A DNA stretch of 64,000 bases from Burkholderiales bacterium (lineage in GTDB: Bacteria > Pseudomonadota > Gammaproteobacteria > Burkholderiales > SG8-39). Position 1 is the stretch's first letter; every line of letters begins with the position of its first letter. The DNA lies in NCBI GenBank assembly GCA_017880775.1, contig JADGRQ010000007.1, positions 1 through 64,000 of the forward strand. Direction: 5' to 3'. The position numbers and the translations under genes were made by a program. Positions 6,168-61,939 of this stretch are shown piece after piece. The notes under the pieces are model-generated. The model made no database searches. It saw only the letters and a program-made list of their open reading frames with translations, and was not told the origin of the DNA.

Positions 6168-6550
6168 CTATCGTACTGGCAAATCTTGCTCTTGACTCGA
6201 ATCGAGGGCGGAAACCCAGTGCCAATTCAGTAATTTGCGCGTTAATGTCAAAAGCTCTTCGAGCTGCTGGCAGATAAAGACCAATGTAGTCCATCCTGCA
6301 CGATGATCGCTGTGATTGGGGGCCCTAAGGGTGCGCATCACGTCCGAAACTGTTTCACATCCACGAGGCGTAGAGGAGCACAGTCATAACGCGGCGGCTG
6401 CTCCGCACGACGCGAAATACTCAGCAGCCGGAAAAGGTGGCCGTGACCCGATGCGCTATGTATTGAGCCGTATTTGCGAAGGGAAAGTTGGAAATCGGCT
6501 AATGCGTTAAGTATGTTGAACCTGCGCAATGACTTGATGATGTCTCCTCA
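6168..6550. other. 383-bp intergenic stretch at the left edge of the accessory insert
   Basis: I find no convincing gene, tRNA or attachment site here. Base composition becomes visibly more AT-rich than in egtD, which marks the start of the 6.2-12.6 kb insert. Short open frames exist on both strands but have no ribosome binding site or recognisable protein. Confidence 0.6.
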
Positions 6551-9500
6551 TTGGAACACCGTTTGAGCTCACGCAAAGATCTGGAAACCCGAATCGCCCA
6601 AAGGCTAGTAACCCTAACGCCTGAGGACACGCAGCGATTGGCCGAGGACTATGCTCGCCTTCGCTTTCCCGATCGCTTTCCACACTTCGATTTCCGGGCC
6701 CTGAGTCCTGAAGGCAAGTCGCGTGCTGGATGGCCCGACGCCTATGTTGTCCTTTCCGGTCGGATGGATGGAGTTGAGGCGACGACCGACAAGAGCAAAT
6801 CCAAGATCTGGAGGCATCTCGAGGATGACATAACCAAGGCTCGCGATCGGACTCCGAAGCTGTCTGGGTTCGTCTTTGTCTCCGGCCAACCGGCGATTCA
6901 ACCGGACGCCGACGAATTGAACAAGTGGCGACAACGGTTTGCGGACGAAGCCGGGCTGGAGTTGGAATGTGTCGATTTGGTGTTCGGCGGCCAGCTGGTG
7001 CAGGAACTAGCCCGCCCCGAATTCGCCCGAACCCGTGCCGAGATCTTGGGACTCACCGACCTGCCAGCTTGGTTTGAACTGGTCCGGCTGAGTGTACCGC
7101 CGGGCAGCCCGCAGGCCGAATTCATTCCCACGCCCGACGACTATGCGAGGGGGCGGGTTCACCGTCCACTGGATGCCGACCGCGTCCTCGGCCATCTGGA
7201 CAAGGAGGGCAGGGCTCTCGTGCGAGGGGTCGGTGCTTCGGGAAAGACGGTGCTGGCCTGGTTACTGGCTTTGGATACTGCCCGCGCAGGTTTGCCGGCC
7301 TACTACCTGGACTTAGCGCAGCTCGGCGAACAGGTCGTCGAAGCCGGCAACGGCCTTGAGGACGACATGGTCCGCTTCGCCCATCCTCGTGCGCTGTTTA
7401 TTCTTGACAACATTCATCTCGACGAGCGATTGGCCAAACGACTGGCGGTGGCATGGGAGGGACTGGTCATTTCGCAGCGCCCACGACTTCTGCTTGTGGG
7501 GAGGGAGCTGTACACCGGGCGCGGCAGCCCGATCGCCGGACTCGACATCCCCACAGTGCCACTGAGGGCGCGCCAAGCTGAGGTAAGGGGTGTCTATCGG
7601 CGCTTGGTCTGGCGTAAGACCGGCTTGGCTACCATCGCGGAACCGCCACCCGAGGTTTTGGACCGCTGGGTCATGACCTTCGGTGGCGACCCGACATCCC
7701 CGGTAACCACGACCGACTTGATCGCCTTCAGCGCCGCCGTACTTAAGCGCCTGCCGAATCTCGTAAACCAAATTTGGACCCTGACTGAGAATGACGCCAT
7801 CGACGAGATTCGCGAGGCTTATCTAAAAAAATTAGACGACAGAGAAACCCACAATTTGATGCGGCTGGCCGCAATGGCGGAATTGGATCTTTCCTTGCCC
7901 GAGGCGGCACTGGCAGACCATAGGGCGGGCTTCGATATTGCCAGTCGTCAACTGGGGCTAGTGTTCCTAGAACACGCCGGTGCTCGTGAGGAATATGTCC
8001 GATATCGTCTTGCCCACGCCGCCCTCGGCCGCCTGCTGCTGGCCGCCGCCTATGCGCCCGTTGACCTGGCGAACGAACAACGCGTGATCGCCCGTGCCCA
8101 TCCCCCTACCGGCTTCGCTCTCGCAAATGCGCTTGCGGTGGCTGGCCTGCCTGGCCGAGCCCAGGCGATCCTGTCTATGCTGATGGAGGATCCGACACGG
8201 CTGCTAGAGCTTCCGAACCTGAATAGCTCGCTTAACGCGCTTCGTTTGGTTCAGCACCACGAGGCTGTTCCTCTGAGCGAAATCGGCCGCGTGTGGGGGG
8301 ATAGCAATAACCGCCCCCGTCTCGTCGAGCGCGCTCTGGTCACGCCGCTGGACCAGCTCCAGTCCTTCTTGGCCTATGCAAACAATACAAAGGAGCTGAA
8401 TACAGTCTTCGACACGCTGACCGCCGAACTCTCAAAGCAGCAAAATCGGGGCCGCCTCACCGAACGCGCCCTGCTTGCGTATCTTGGAGACCTCCAGTCT
8501 TTCCTAGCCTATGCGGAGAAAACCAAGAAGCTGAAAACAGTTTTCGACACTCTAGCCATTGAACTCGGAAAGAATCAATACCGGGAGCGCCTCGTCGAGC
8601 GCGCCCTGCTTACGTCGTTGGGAGACCTCCAGTCTTTCCTAGCCTATGCCGAGAAAACCAAGAAGCTGAAAGCGGTCTTTGACACCCAAACCGCAGAACT
8701 GCGAAAGGACCAATACTGGGGACGCCTTGTCGAGCGGTTTATCAGTGCTCCGCTTGGCCAACTCGCAAACATCCTGTCAGCCGATTCTGCCAAGGATCTC
8801 TGGAGCGCCGTTCTTGTAGACGTGGACTTGGAGGAATGGGAACGAAACCGCTTGTTGGGCAACGAGGCTGATATGAGTGCATTCGTTAAGTTCCAACAAC
8901 TCGCGTCCGCGAAGGGACGGCCTGAATTGGCCGCAGCGCCGGCTCTCACGCTGCTTCGCAGCGCTGATCCGAAACAATGGCATCATGAAGTCATTGGTCT
9001 TCACCATCTGTCTCATGTCCTTCGATGCGCCACGAAGCGTACGGACGAGGAAACTCGCCGCTTCTTGGAGCGGATCGTTACAGCCGACTGGATTGAACAC
9101 CAAGTGCAATCGGGAGCAAGAACGGGCGGTTTAGCCGGCAGTTTGCTAGCGTTGAGCATCAGCCTCCCGCCCGAATCGAGAATGCCTTTTCTGCGCTCCA
9201 GCCTTCGAGAGCGTGTCATCAAGGAACTGAGGACCACCCCCTCTGGGGAATTCGTCGCATGGTCCCTGACTTTGTCCCTGCTCGGCGCGGCGGCAGCTCT
9301 TGGGCTACGGCTTGACTCCGTCGAAGCGCGTTGGCCTCGTGACGAAGATCTCGCGGCGATCCTCGAACTGCGAATATCACGTGCAGAGCAGACCACAATA
9401 GCCCCTCTCCAAGTTCAACTTTGGCTCGGGCTGCGGGAGATGGAGCGGCTGCGGGACGATGCCGTTTCGGTACCTTTAAAACAGGGCGACGCAATCCTGA

Positions 9501-9628
9501 CGTTGTGGCGCGCCACTCATGATCGCGCGGTAGCCCAATCCCCGCCCGTGTATCTCCGCGAAGCCAACGCCGGAATGATTGCTTGGCTAGAGCGCTGCGA
9601 GGCGAATGGGTGGCGCTTGATTCAATGA
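6551..9628 (+). CDS. large P-loop NTPase with 45-residue tandem repeats, putative defence protein
   Basis: I do not recognise this 1025-residue protein as a named family. Residues 1-150 look like a compact alpha/beta domain with GWPDAYVVLSGRMDGVEATTDKSKSK, reminiscent of PD-(D/E)xK nucleases in which the usual lysine is absent. A P-loop, GVGASGKT, lies at 226-233, and ALFILDNIHLDE at 281-292 is a Walker B candidate. Residues 590-724 hold three exact 45-residue repeats plus a partial fourth; the rest is helical. N-terminal effector, NTPase and C-terminal repeats is the layout of STAND-type immune NTPases, but that is inference. The start is the TTG at 6551, because ATGs just upstream are out of frame; a TTG at 6563 is an alternative. 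Codon use is less GC-rich than in the flanking core genes. Confidence 0.7.
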   Translation: MEHRLSSRKDLETRIAQRLVTLTPEDTQRLAEDYARLRFPDRFPHFDFRALSPEGKSRAGWPDAYVVLSGRMDGVEATTDKSKSKIWRHLEDDITKARDRTPKLSGFVFVSGQPAIQPDADELNKWRQRFADEAGLELECVDLVFGGQLVQELARPEFARTRAEILGLTDLPAWFELVRLSVPPGSPQAEFIPTPDDYARGRVHRPLDADRVLGHLDKEGRALVRGVGASGKTVLAWLLALDTARAGLPAYYLDLAQLGEQVVEAGNGLEDDMVRFAHPRALFILDNIHLDERLAKRLAVAWEGLVISQRPRLLLVGRELYTGRGSPIAGLDIPTVPLRARQAEVRGVYRRLVWRKTGLATIAEPPPEVLDRWVMTFGGDPTSPVTTTDLIAFSAAVLKRLPNLVNQIWTLTENDAIDEIREAYLKKLDDRETHNLMRLAAMAELDLSLPEAALADHRAGFDIASRQLGLVFLEHAGAREEYVRYRLAHAALGRLLLAAAYAPVDLANEQRVIARAHPPTGFALANALAVAGLPGRAQAILSMLMEDPTRLLELPNLNSSLNALRLVQHHEAVPLSEIGRVWGDSNNRPRLVERALVTPLDQLQSFLAYANNTKELNTVFDTLTAELSKQQNRGRLTERALLAYLGDLQSFLAYAEKTKKLKTVFDTLAIELGKNQYRERLVERALLTSLGDLQSFLAYAEKTKKLKAVFDTQTAELRKDQYWGRLVERFISAPLGQLANILSADSAKDLWSAVLVDVDLEEWERNRLLGNEADMSAFVKFQQLASAKGRPELAAAPALTLLRSADPKQWHHEVIGLHHLSHVLRCATKRTDEETRRFLERIVTADWIEHQVQSGARTGGLAGSLLALSISLPPESRMPFLRSSLRERVIKELRTTPSGEFVAWSLTLSLLGAAAALGLRLDSVEARWPRDEDLAAILELRISRAEQTTIAPLQVQLWLGLREMERLRDDAVSVPLKQGDAILTLWRATHDRAVAQSPPVYLREANAGMIAWLERCEANGWRLIQ
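8318..8722 (+). repeat. three 135-bp in-frame tandem repeats inside the NTPase gene
   Basis: Units start at 8318, 8453 and 8588, exactly 135 bp apart, and a fourth, diverging unit starts at 8723. Each encodes 45 residues built around R-L-x-E-R-A-L and L-Q-S-F-L-A-Y-A. Units 2 and 3 are the closest at DNA level, indicating recent expansion by slippage or unequal exchange. Confidence 0.9.
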
Positions 9629-10181
9629 CGACGGCAGAGGTTTGTCTGGTTTTAGCGCTAAATGGCGGATGTCCCGCGGCGGCATGCGTGCGTCAGCTCT
9701 GCAACAGCCCAATGGGCGCTCCCGATCTCCTGCAGACGCGCGCATTGCGCCATTGAGTGCGCCGTACGTCGCGCGCTGATGTCCCCGCGCATGAGTTTCC
9801 CTACTAGGGACGCAACGGAGTATTCGGGGTTGGCCAATTCCATGAGGTAACGCCATGTTTCCGCCCGACATGAGGTATGGTGATCTAGGTTGTCACATTG
9901 GACTCCCGCGCGGCGCGTCAATCTGTGTCGACTTGCATTCAATTTGTGAAGCAGACCGGCCTATGTCTTAAAGGGCGCAGTGATTGAAGAGAGTGTTGCG
10001 TTGCGTGAAACACTGTATCAGCACTCCTCGCCGCGTAGGGCTGGTTTGCCGGCCAACATCGGTCGAACAAGATGAACTATGGCATACTGTACACACGTAC
10101 AGTACTGCGCGCTGTGGTGTGCCTTGCGCGTCCTCTGCATGAAATCCATACTGCCGTCTCTCAAGGGGCGGGGGAGGAGAC
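9629..10181. other. 553-bp gap between the two island genes
   Basis: No well-supported gene. A minus-strand frame at 9658-9843 could encode 61 residues starting MELANPEYSVASLVGKLMRG, but it has no clear ribosome binding site and I cannot place it. The main signal is the LexA-type palindrome at 10085-10104, close to the following gene. Confidence 0.5.
10085..10104. promoter_or_regulatory. LexA (SOS) box upstream of the GHKL-nuclease gene
   Basis: TACTGTACACACGTACAGTA is a perfect inverted repeat with 8-bp arms around ACAC. It fits CTGT-N8-ACAG, the LexA operator of beta- and gammaproteobacteria, and agrees with the extended consensus at both outer TA dinucleotides. It lies 77 bp upstream of the GTG start of the GHKL ATPase gene. 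Confidence 0.85.
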
Positions 10182-12194
10182 GTGGACGAGAAGACCTATC
10201 AGGTAGCGGTCCAGTCGGACTTCATTCAGAAGCTCGGTCATGTGGCGCCGGCCACCGGGCTTGCCGAGTTGATTTGGAACTCACTCGACGCGGATGCGAC
10301 GCAGGTCGAAGTCGCCCTCGATGAGGCTGTTTTCGGTCAGGAACGCGTGATCGTCAGAGACAACGGAACGGGCTTCAAGCACGAAGACGCGCCAACCCTA
10401 TTCAGAAGTCTGGGCAACTCATGGAAGCTGTCGAAGCGGATCACTCAGCGAGATGGGCGCTTTCTTCACGGAGCGGAGGGGCAAGGTCGATTCAAGGCAC
10501 TTGCGCTCGGACGAGTCGTGACGTGGCACATAGTCCGCTCCTTAAATAACAGGTTTGAGGAATTCGATGTGTGGATGGCGGGGGATGAACCCTCGATCGT
10601 CCATGTGTCCGACGTGAAGCTGTCGCCATCCGCGAAGCCAGGTGTCACGGTGACGGTGTCCGAGCTGTCCAAGAGTTTCACCCTCTTGAAGGGGCAGACC
10701 ATCGCGCAGGGGCTATGCGAGACGTTCTCCTCGTACTTGCGCAACTACCCTAACCTGCGTATCTCGCTTCCGAACGGCGTCCTCGACCCGGCAGCGGTTA
10801 TCAATACGACGAAGCAGATCGAGCTGCCTCCGGTCCGCTACGAGGATCAGCAATACAAAGCGACCTTGGAGCTTGTGGCATGGAAAGCTACGACCGAGCG
10901 ATTCCTGTACTTCTGCGATGAACGAGGACTGTCTTTTGGCCGTACCCAGCTCCGTATCCACTCGCCCGGCTTGAATGTCTCCGCTCACCTGAAGTCCAGC
11001 TTGGTGTCGAAGTTGTCTCAAGAGGGTGTCCTCGGGTTGGAGGCAATGCACCCGGCGCTAACGGAGACATTGGAACGAGTCGGCGAGGAAGTGAAAACCT
11101 TCCACCGAGAGCGCCTAGCCCAAGAGGCGCAGGCGGTCGTCGAAGAGTGGAAGGAGTCGGACGTCTATCCCTACCGAGGAGATCCGACCACCCCGGTCGA
11201 GCGCATCGAGCGGCAAGTATTCGACATTGTGGCTTCACGAGTGAACCAGCACCTGCCGGACTTCATGCCGTCCAGCAAGAAGTCAAAGCAGTTCCAGTTA
11301 CGATTGTTGCGGCAGGCGGTGGAGAAGAGTCCGGAAGACCTCCGACGCATTCTCTCGCAAGTCATCGATCTTCCGCTGACGCAACGGAAGGAACTTGCGG
11401 ACCTTCTGGACTATGTATCCTTGAGTGGCATCATCTCCGCGGCGAAGCTCGTAGCGGAACGGCTCCAGTTTCTGGCGGGTCTCGAGAAGCTCATTTTCGA
11501 CCGAGAAGAGAAGAAGCTCCTGAAGGAGCGCAAGCAGTTACATCGAATGCTTGCACCGCAGACGTGGCTCTTTGGGGAACAGTTCGCGTTGAGCGTTGAC
11601 GACCAATCGCTCACGGAAGTCTTGCGCAAGCACCTTGAAGGGAGCGATCTCGGGGACGTGGATCTTGCGACGCCGGTGTTGAGGGCTGACGGTAAACGAG
11701 GAATCGTTGACCTTATGTTGAGCCGTCAAATACCTCGAGGACGACCGGAAGAACGTGAGCATCTGGTGGTGGAACTGAAGAGGCCGAAGGTAATCGTCAA
11801 GTCCAAGGAATTGACGCAGGTGGAGGAATACGCGCTTGCCGTAGCTAAGGACGAGCGGTTCCGTGCGGTCTCTGCCAGATGGGATTTTTGGCTCCTGACG
11901 AATGAGTATGACGATCTCGTGAAAGCCAAAGCCACACAGGCGAATCGCCCTGCTGGGCTAGTGATAGACAACGACGAACTGCGACTGCGGGTCTGGGTGA
12001 AGACATGGGGCCAGTTGTTGGAGGAGAATCGTGCGCGGCTCCAATTTATGCAGGAGCGGCTTGGCTATCAACCGGATTACGAAGATGCGTTGCAGCGGCT
12101 CAAGCTGCGGTACGCCGAGTTGTTCGCGAAAATAGAAGATGGTGAGGTTACCGAGGAGGCGGCCAATTCAGAAGACGAGCAGGCCGCGCAATAA
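10182..12194 (+). CDS. GHKL ATPase (MORC/MutL-like) with C-terminal PD-(D/E)xK-like nuclease domain
   Basis: A 670-residue protein with an N-terminal Hsp90-type ATPase fold. The N box is E29-LIW-N33, the G1 box D60-NGTG-F65, and the G2 region HGAEGQGRFKALALG lies around residues 96-110. The middle is mostly helical and partly coiled-coil. The C-terminal part has D510 in GIVDLML, E531-L-K533 in VVELKRP, and a downstream Gln in LTQVEEY, which is the arrangement of a PD-(D/E)xK nuclease. Prokaryotic GHKL ATPases of the MORC/MutL-like class are known beside restriction systems, so a nucleic-acid-directed defence role is likely but inferred. The GTG start follows a purine-rich stretch (GGGGGAGGAGAC). 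A LexA box upstream suggests induction by DNA damage. Confidence 0.82.
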   Translation: MDEKTYQVAVQSDFIQKLGHVAPATGLAELIWNSLDADATQVEVALDEAVFGQERVIVRDNGTGFKHEDAPTLFRSLGNSWKLSKRITQRDGRFLHGAEGQGRFKALALGRVVTWHIVRSLNNRFEEFDVWMAGDEPSIVHVSDVKLSPSAKPGVTVTVSELSKSFTLLKGQTIAQGLCETFSSYLRNYPNLRISLPNGVLDPAAVINTTKQIELPPVRYEDQQYKATLELVAWKATTERFLYFCDERGLSFGRTQLRIHSPGLNVSAHLKSSLVSKLSQEGVLGLEAMHPALTETLERVGEEVKTFHRERLAQEAQAVVEEWKESDVYPYRGDPTTPVERIERQVFDIVASRVNQHLPDFMPSSKKSKQFQLRLLRQAVEKSPEDLRRILSQVIDLPLTQRKELADLLDYVSLSGIISAAKLVAERLQFLAGLEKLIFDREEKKLLKERKQLHRMLAPQTWLFGEQFALSVDDQSLTEVLRKHLEGSDLGDVDLATPVLRADGKRGIVDLMLSRQIPRGRPEEREHLVVELKRPKVIVKSKELTQVEEYALAVAKDERFRAVSARWDFWLLTNEYDDLVKAKATQANRPAGLVIDNDELRLRVWVKTWGQLLEENRARLQFMQERLGYQPDYEDALQRLKLRYAELFAKIEDGEVTEEAANSEDEQAAQ

Positions 12195-12612
12195 AGGCTG
12201 TTCGGTAAGGCCTTCCGCCCTCTTGGCCATTGCTTTTCTCGTTGCTCGTCGTGCCATTGACCGAGCATTGCGCTCGGGTCGGTGATGATTCGGAAGTTCA
12301 CTGCTTGCTCGTGATCCGCGTCGCCAACGTGGATCAGAGCGAATATGGGGCCCGTATTGGCGAACGTTATTCGCGGTATAGATTCCACGAATCATCGCCT
12401 TGGTTTTGGCCGCCGTGTTCCGCCGTTTCAGCGACCCCTTTACGGTATGCGATCAACAGACCGCGTCCTTCCGCCTCCGGGTGAGTCGGGTACACGGAGT
12501 GGTACCGCGGTGTCTATGTACGTGGTGCGCGGCTTTGTCGAGATGCGCGATGCGCTTATAGCGCACCAAGCGCTCGCCAAGCGCCTGGATCTCCGCCTGC
12601 GCGGGGACGACG
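12195..12612. other. 418-bp gap at the right edge of the insert
   Basis: Contains no intact gene. The only recognisable content is a short remnant of an ORF6N-type phage regulator at about 12516-12611, immediately before the IclR gene stop. The rest looks like degraded island DNA. Confidence 0.5.
12516..12611 (+). pseudogene. ORF6N-domain protein, C-terminal remnant
   Basis: The frame beginning MYVVRGFVEMRDALIAHQAL continues into AKRLD and resembles the helix after the ORF6N domain of phage-type regulators (typical pattern V-R-A-F-V-R-L-R-E-L-L-A-x-H-x-E-L-A-x-K-L). The DNA-binding domain itself is missing upstream. Assignment is by pattern memory on about 30 residues, so it is tentative. 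Confidence 0.4.
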
Positions 12613-61919: not shown

Positions 61920-61939
61920 AACTGGAGATATGTACAGTA
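61920..61939. promoter_or_regulatory. LexA-like (SOS) box upstream of the UvrD-type helicase
   Basis: AACTGGAGATATGTACAGTA agrees with the E. coli LexA consensus at 16 of 20 positions by eye. The right half (ACAGTA) is perfect; the left half has CTGG instead of CTGT. It ends 19 bp before the GTG start. Confidence 0.6.

Follow-up and report, generated by a model that had tools for sequence, protein, structure and literature searches.

The window, by which we mean the whole 64-kb stretch of DNA analysed here, contains a segment of about 6.45 kb of lower GC that separates the convergent genes egtD and iclR. In a genome of the same genus (G1019) this site is empty, and egtD and iclR lie a few bases apart. 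The cargo of the insert comprises two genes, one for a protein that joins a GHKL ATPase to a nuclease (the GHKL nuclease) and one for a rare P-loop protein; no regulator gene was found within it. The features of the insert, together with a second LexA-type box used for internal comparison, are as follows.

6168-12612, no strand assigned: horizontally acquired insert of lower GC between convergent egtD and iclR; ends approximate.
6551-9628, + strand: gene for a P-loop protein of 1025 aa with internal repeats, a putative STAND-like ATPase (weak assignment).
10085-10104, no strand assigned: LexA-type operator, TACTGTAC-ACAC-GTACAGTA, with the core CTGT-N8-ACAG at 10087-10102; from pattern and matrix searches.
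10173-10179, + strand: probable ribosome-binding site GGAGGAG, from reading of the sequence.
10182-12194, + strand: gene for the GHKL ATPase plus PD-(D/E)xK nuclease, 670 aa, GTG start; from open reading frame, Pfam and alignment.
10248-10751, + strand: GHKL ATPase domain, approximately residues 23-190; from Pfam, alignment and model; borders approximate.
10764-11006, + strand: transducer (S5-like) region, approximately residues 195-275; from secondary structure and fold match; borders approximate.
11487-12125, + strand: C-terminal PD-(D/E)xK nuclease domain, approximately residues 436-648; from alignment, HSDR_N_2 matches, model and fold matches.
11709-11711, 11772-11774 and 11778-11780, + strand: nuclease residues D510, E531 and K533, respectively; from a 23-member alignment.
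61921-61938, no strand assigned: LexA-type box ACTGGAGATATGTACAGT upstream of a uvrD-family helicase gene; highest matrix score in the window.

The gap between egtD and iclR is a variable site, because other relatives carry different, unrelated genes there (L151 10190-13771; L150 8360-9254). DNA relatives of the insert were sought in plasmids, and none was found. The 1025-aa P-loop protein contains three internal repeats of about 60 aa, and a family search with it gave no match above the cut-off; we tentatively regard it as STAND-like. A relative (39%, half the length) is encoded on a Rhizobium plasmid near AbiH. We considered an operon or module made up of the GHKL nuclease and the STAND-like gene and rejected it, as no examined homologue of the former has a STAND-like gene nearby.

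The sequence-only reading had described the product of the second gene as a MORC/MutL-like ATPase with a C-terminal D-E-x-K nuclease motif, and this description held. We found that the protein consists, in order, of a GHKL ATPase (PF13589, E=7.7e-12 in a Pfam search), a transducer, a helical linker and a C-terminal PD-(D/E)xK nuclease. The ATPase motifs E29, N33, D36, D60-x-G-x-G and G97-x-x-G-x-G are kept in the 23-member alignment; within D510...E531-L-K533, the first and last residues never vary, and at least 90% of members have E531. Judged by this alignment, the catalytic residues of both the ATPase and the nuclease are intact. In a structure model of the whole protein (mean pLDDT 72.7, pTM 0.58), the predicted ATPase and transducer match the folds of topoisomerase VI-B, Hsp90/TRAP1, MutL and MORC2. 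The best fold matches of the C-terminal domain model (mean pLDDT 71.8) were NucS/EndoMS, MspJI, McrC, FokI and Avs3, all at E > 0.001; these are PD-(D/E)xK nucleases. HSDR_N_2 was matched by 21 of the 23 family members, mostly weakly. The protein appears to share the GHKL-transducer fold with MutL, but the sequence similarity ends past the ATPase motifs and the nuclease domains differ in type. An assignment as MutL itself was rejected, the protein scoring 34.5 bits against the MutL model, for which the cut-off is 180.

The box upstream of this gene reads TACTGTACACACGTACAGTA, and its 3' edge lies 77 bp from the GTG at 10182, which is the spacing that had been claimed. The site was also said to be a perfect palindrome fitting CTGT-N8-ACAG. 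The fit to the pattern stands; the palindrome is perfect over its arms of 8 bp each (TACTGTAC and GTACAGTA) and is only a near-palindrome as a whole, because the ACAC centre is not symmetric. CTGT-N8-ACAG occurs once in the window, at 10087-10102, against 0.51 occurrences expected by chance, and the genome contains 11 such sites, equally as many as of a reversed-pattern control. For these reasons the pattern by itself is weak evidence, and we dropped the bare match as proof of a LexA site. The extended form, ACTGT-N8-ACAGT, is scarce, with two copies in 4.3 Mb and 1.3-2.6 predicted from base composition. Full 8-bp arms go far beyond chance, with about 1e-4 to 4e-4 expected per genome. Searches at the box for a sigma-70 promoter adjoining it and for a terminator gave no convincing or consensus match to the former and none of the latter.

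We scored all positions of the 64-kb window with a LexA matrix trained solely on the boxes before lexA in the host and its relatives, the box at 10085-10104 being excluded. Two sites stood far above the rest: 61921, before uvrD (21.5 bits), and 10086 (20.8 bits); the third-best site reached 10.4 bits. uvrD is a classical SOS gene. Because a matrix built from the self-boxes of lexA ranks it second, beside that of uvrD, the site at 10085-10104 is very probably a LexA operator. The genome has a single lexA, with the box ACTGGATATACTTCCAGT upstream at -34, and a single recA, the box before which is weak (10.4 bits). In the lexA genes of relatives the box mostly takes the form ACTG[GT]-N8-[AC]CAGT. 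Exact matches to ACTGK-N8-MCAGT number 8 in the host genome and include sites before lexA, uvrD, an integron-integrase remnant and the GHKL-nuclease gene; the others are mostly intragenic. The remnant (L017, G000:C74, about 54154), which is frameshifted and carries a LexA-type box, is presumably an integron integrase, as recognised from its sequence motifs. A further site, ACTGTATAAATGAACAGC (21.5 bits), overlaps the start of a gene for an MFS-type transporter (L004, G000:C63, about 26618). Since a similar-scoring box sits over this transporter start, a high matrix score alone is no proof of control. With lexA and recA present, and with boxes before lexA and uvrD that resemble the one at 10085-10104, the proposed SOS control of the GHKL nuclease is well supported by sequence.

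There is no close orthologue for a comparison of the box: among 98 genomes of the taxonomic family the gene is present in one, that of the host, and absent from the other 97. No LexA-type box was found within 350 bp of the start in any of 25 distant homologues (best score 11.6 bits), nor did the clade-specific LexA boxes GTTC-N7-GTTC and GAAC-N4-GTTC occur within 350 bp before the alpha- and actinobacterial homologues. The predicted SOS control is thus local and is not conserved among the homologues checked; the box either came with the lineage of the gene or arose after transfer. These counts bear on the possibility that the protein is a defence nuclease without SOS control, expressed as its homologues are, in which case the box either arose by chance or belongs to a different regulator. 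Such an account is in keeping with the 0 of 25 homologues and with a core pattern whose genomic count does not exceed that of the reversed control. It fits poorly with the rank of the site next to that of uvrD, with the expected frequency of perfect 8-bp arms (about 1e-4 per genome) and with an insert that brings no regulator gene of its own. We consider it unlikely.

Full-length homologues show 29-45% identity and occur sporadically: in 47 plasmid records, in two Pasteurella phages and in five other genomes among 369 sampled in the class. A search of viral contigs gave no match. In Pasteurella phage Pmp14 the homologue (L085 6986-8944) lies between tail genes. Recognised defence or restriction genes are present in nine of the approximately two dozen homologue neighbourhoods fetched, a raw count. 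The neighbours are a Type I restriction operon (L070), a Type III Res (L068), Shedu SduA (L072), a UG5-nitrilase reverse transcriptase (L078), a HamB-like (Hachiman-like) helicase (L080), a PADLOC helicase (L069), an AAA ATPase similar to several defence ATPases (L073), a Type IIG/ISP enzyme (L079), and Drt2 with LlaMI (L083). Members of the GHKL-nuclease family recur in or beside restriction and anti-phage systems; the family is widespread and uncharacterised, and travels with such systems. These neighbourhoods lend support to the link with restriction of incoming DNA that was suggested from the sequence at the outset.

It had also been said that no described system with this exact pair of domains was known under LexA. 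For the pair of domains itself this does not hold, since two described systems have it. VcSduA of V. cholerae is an anti-phage GHKL ATPase plus PD-(D/E)xK nuclease of GHKL-Shedu type I-D; changes in its ATPase or nuclease residues abolish phage defence, and its protection holds at every multiplicity of infection tried, which points to direct restriction (PMC12137116). In layout the host protein resembles VcSduA: both are stand-alone proteins of about the same length, with the GHKL ATPase at the N-terminus and the PD-(D/E)xK nuclease at the C-terminus. It differs from GHKL-Shedu in giving no match to PF14082 (DUF4263/SduA_C) at E up to 1 and in a nuclease part nearer to HSDR_N_2, and from VcSduA in the LexA box before its gene. 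PF14082 was likewise not among the 25 families listed, out of 27, for the 23 family members, one of which gave a weak PADLOC match to SduA (0.0014). Single-sequence searches against Shedu proteins gave no match, and the relation is visible by profile comparison only: a GHKL-Shedu-type protein (L142, whose SduA_C match of 24.5 bits is just under the 27-bit cut-off) aligned with the family end to end (528 columns; probability 97.6; E 2.8e-12), and the ELK motifs lined up. As far as can be judged from such comparisons, the GHKL nuclease would work like GHKL-Shedu; we do not class it as a member of Shedu.

The second system, paraMORC3, was described in 2008 as a GHKL domain, a transducer and a C-terminal E-D-ExK nuclease, of sporadic distribution and encoded by restriction-associated or stand-alone genes (PMC2292703). 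The layout of GHKL domain plus C-terminal nuclease is found in the host protein too, the first E of E-D-ExK being unplaced, and judged by this layout the GHKL-nuclease family is likely to be paraMORC3. LexA control of VcSduA or of paraMORC3 is not mentioned in the passages at hand of PMC12137116 and PMC2292703, and a limited search of partial literature sources found no report of LexA-controlled phage defence. SymE of E. coli, a LexA-repressed toxin that adjoins the hsd restriction genes (PMC1891008, PMC3874152), is similar in being a LexA-controlled gene in a restriction or defence setting; it differs in being a small toxin with an antisense RNA, and the protein is unrelated to the GHKL nuclease. 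The type of protein is thus known in outline, and its predicted LexA-type regulation is a single instance.

Together, these results favour, with reasonable though far from complete confidence, a stand-alone DNA-defence nuclease that the host would keep under LexA repression. Against this reading speak the missing box in the 25 homologues, the lack of a convincing sigma-70 promoter beside the box and the similar-scoring site over the transporter start. Alternatively, the protein could be an SOS-induced repair or recombination enzyme that processes damaged host DNA as MutL or NucS does. Its MutL-like ATPase, the NucS-like fold that best matches its nuclease and a LexA box of the same type as that of uvrD all suit such a role, which we nevertheless judge improbable: the gene is sporadic and mobile (plasmids, phages, inserts), defence genes lie near some of its homologues, and all but one of the 98 family genomes lack it. 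We give still less credence to an abortive, self-harming effector, in which LexA restrains a toxic nuclease whose induction damages the host genome, perhaps together with the putative STAND-like gene that adjoins it, since, although strict control by LexA would make sense for a toxic protein (cf. SymE), the protection given by VcSduA, the nearest tested protein, points to direct restriction, and no examined homologue has a STAND-like gene nearby.

Returning to the stand-alone defence nuclease, we propose tentatively, and at a little less than even confidence, that a Shedu-like GHKL nuclease was wired into the host's SOS response after transfer and provides a second, inducible layer of immunity that is switched on once DNA has been damaged by the phage itself or by another defence system. 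In the favoured reading as a whole, LexA would keep the gene low. Single-stranded DNA would arise from phage replication, from incoming DNA or through the action of another nuclease; RecA would then trigger the self-cleavage of LexA, and the GHKL nuclease would be made. ATP binding would then close the GHKL dimer round DNA, as MutL and MORC do and as has been proposed for VcSduA, and this closure would license cleavage of the invading DNA by the C-terminal nuclease. Little is known of how bacteria time the production of DNA-cutting immune enzymes, which are costly; if the proposal is true, a defence nuclease acquired by transfer and put under the host's LexA would offer a clean and testable example of damage-linked immunity.

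Finally, some LexA proteins of the host's taxonomic family (L005, L098, L099, L100, L101) carry the sequence SVNAAEQHL, with Q at the position of E. coli E45, and the lexA boxes of this same set have CTGG for CTGT. This co-occurrence may reflect a shift of LexA specificity.
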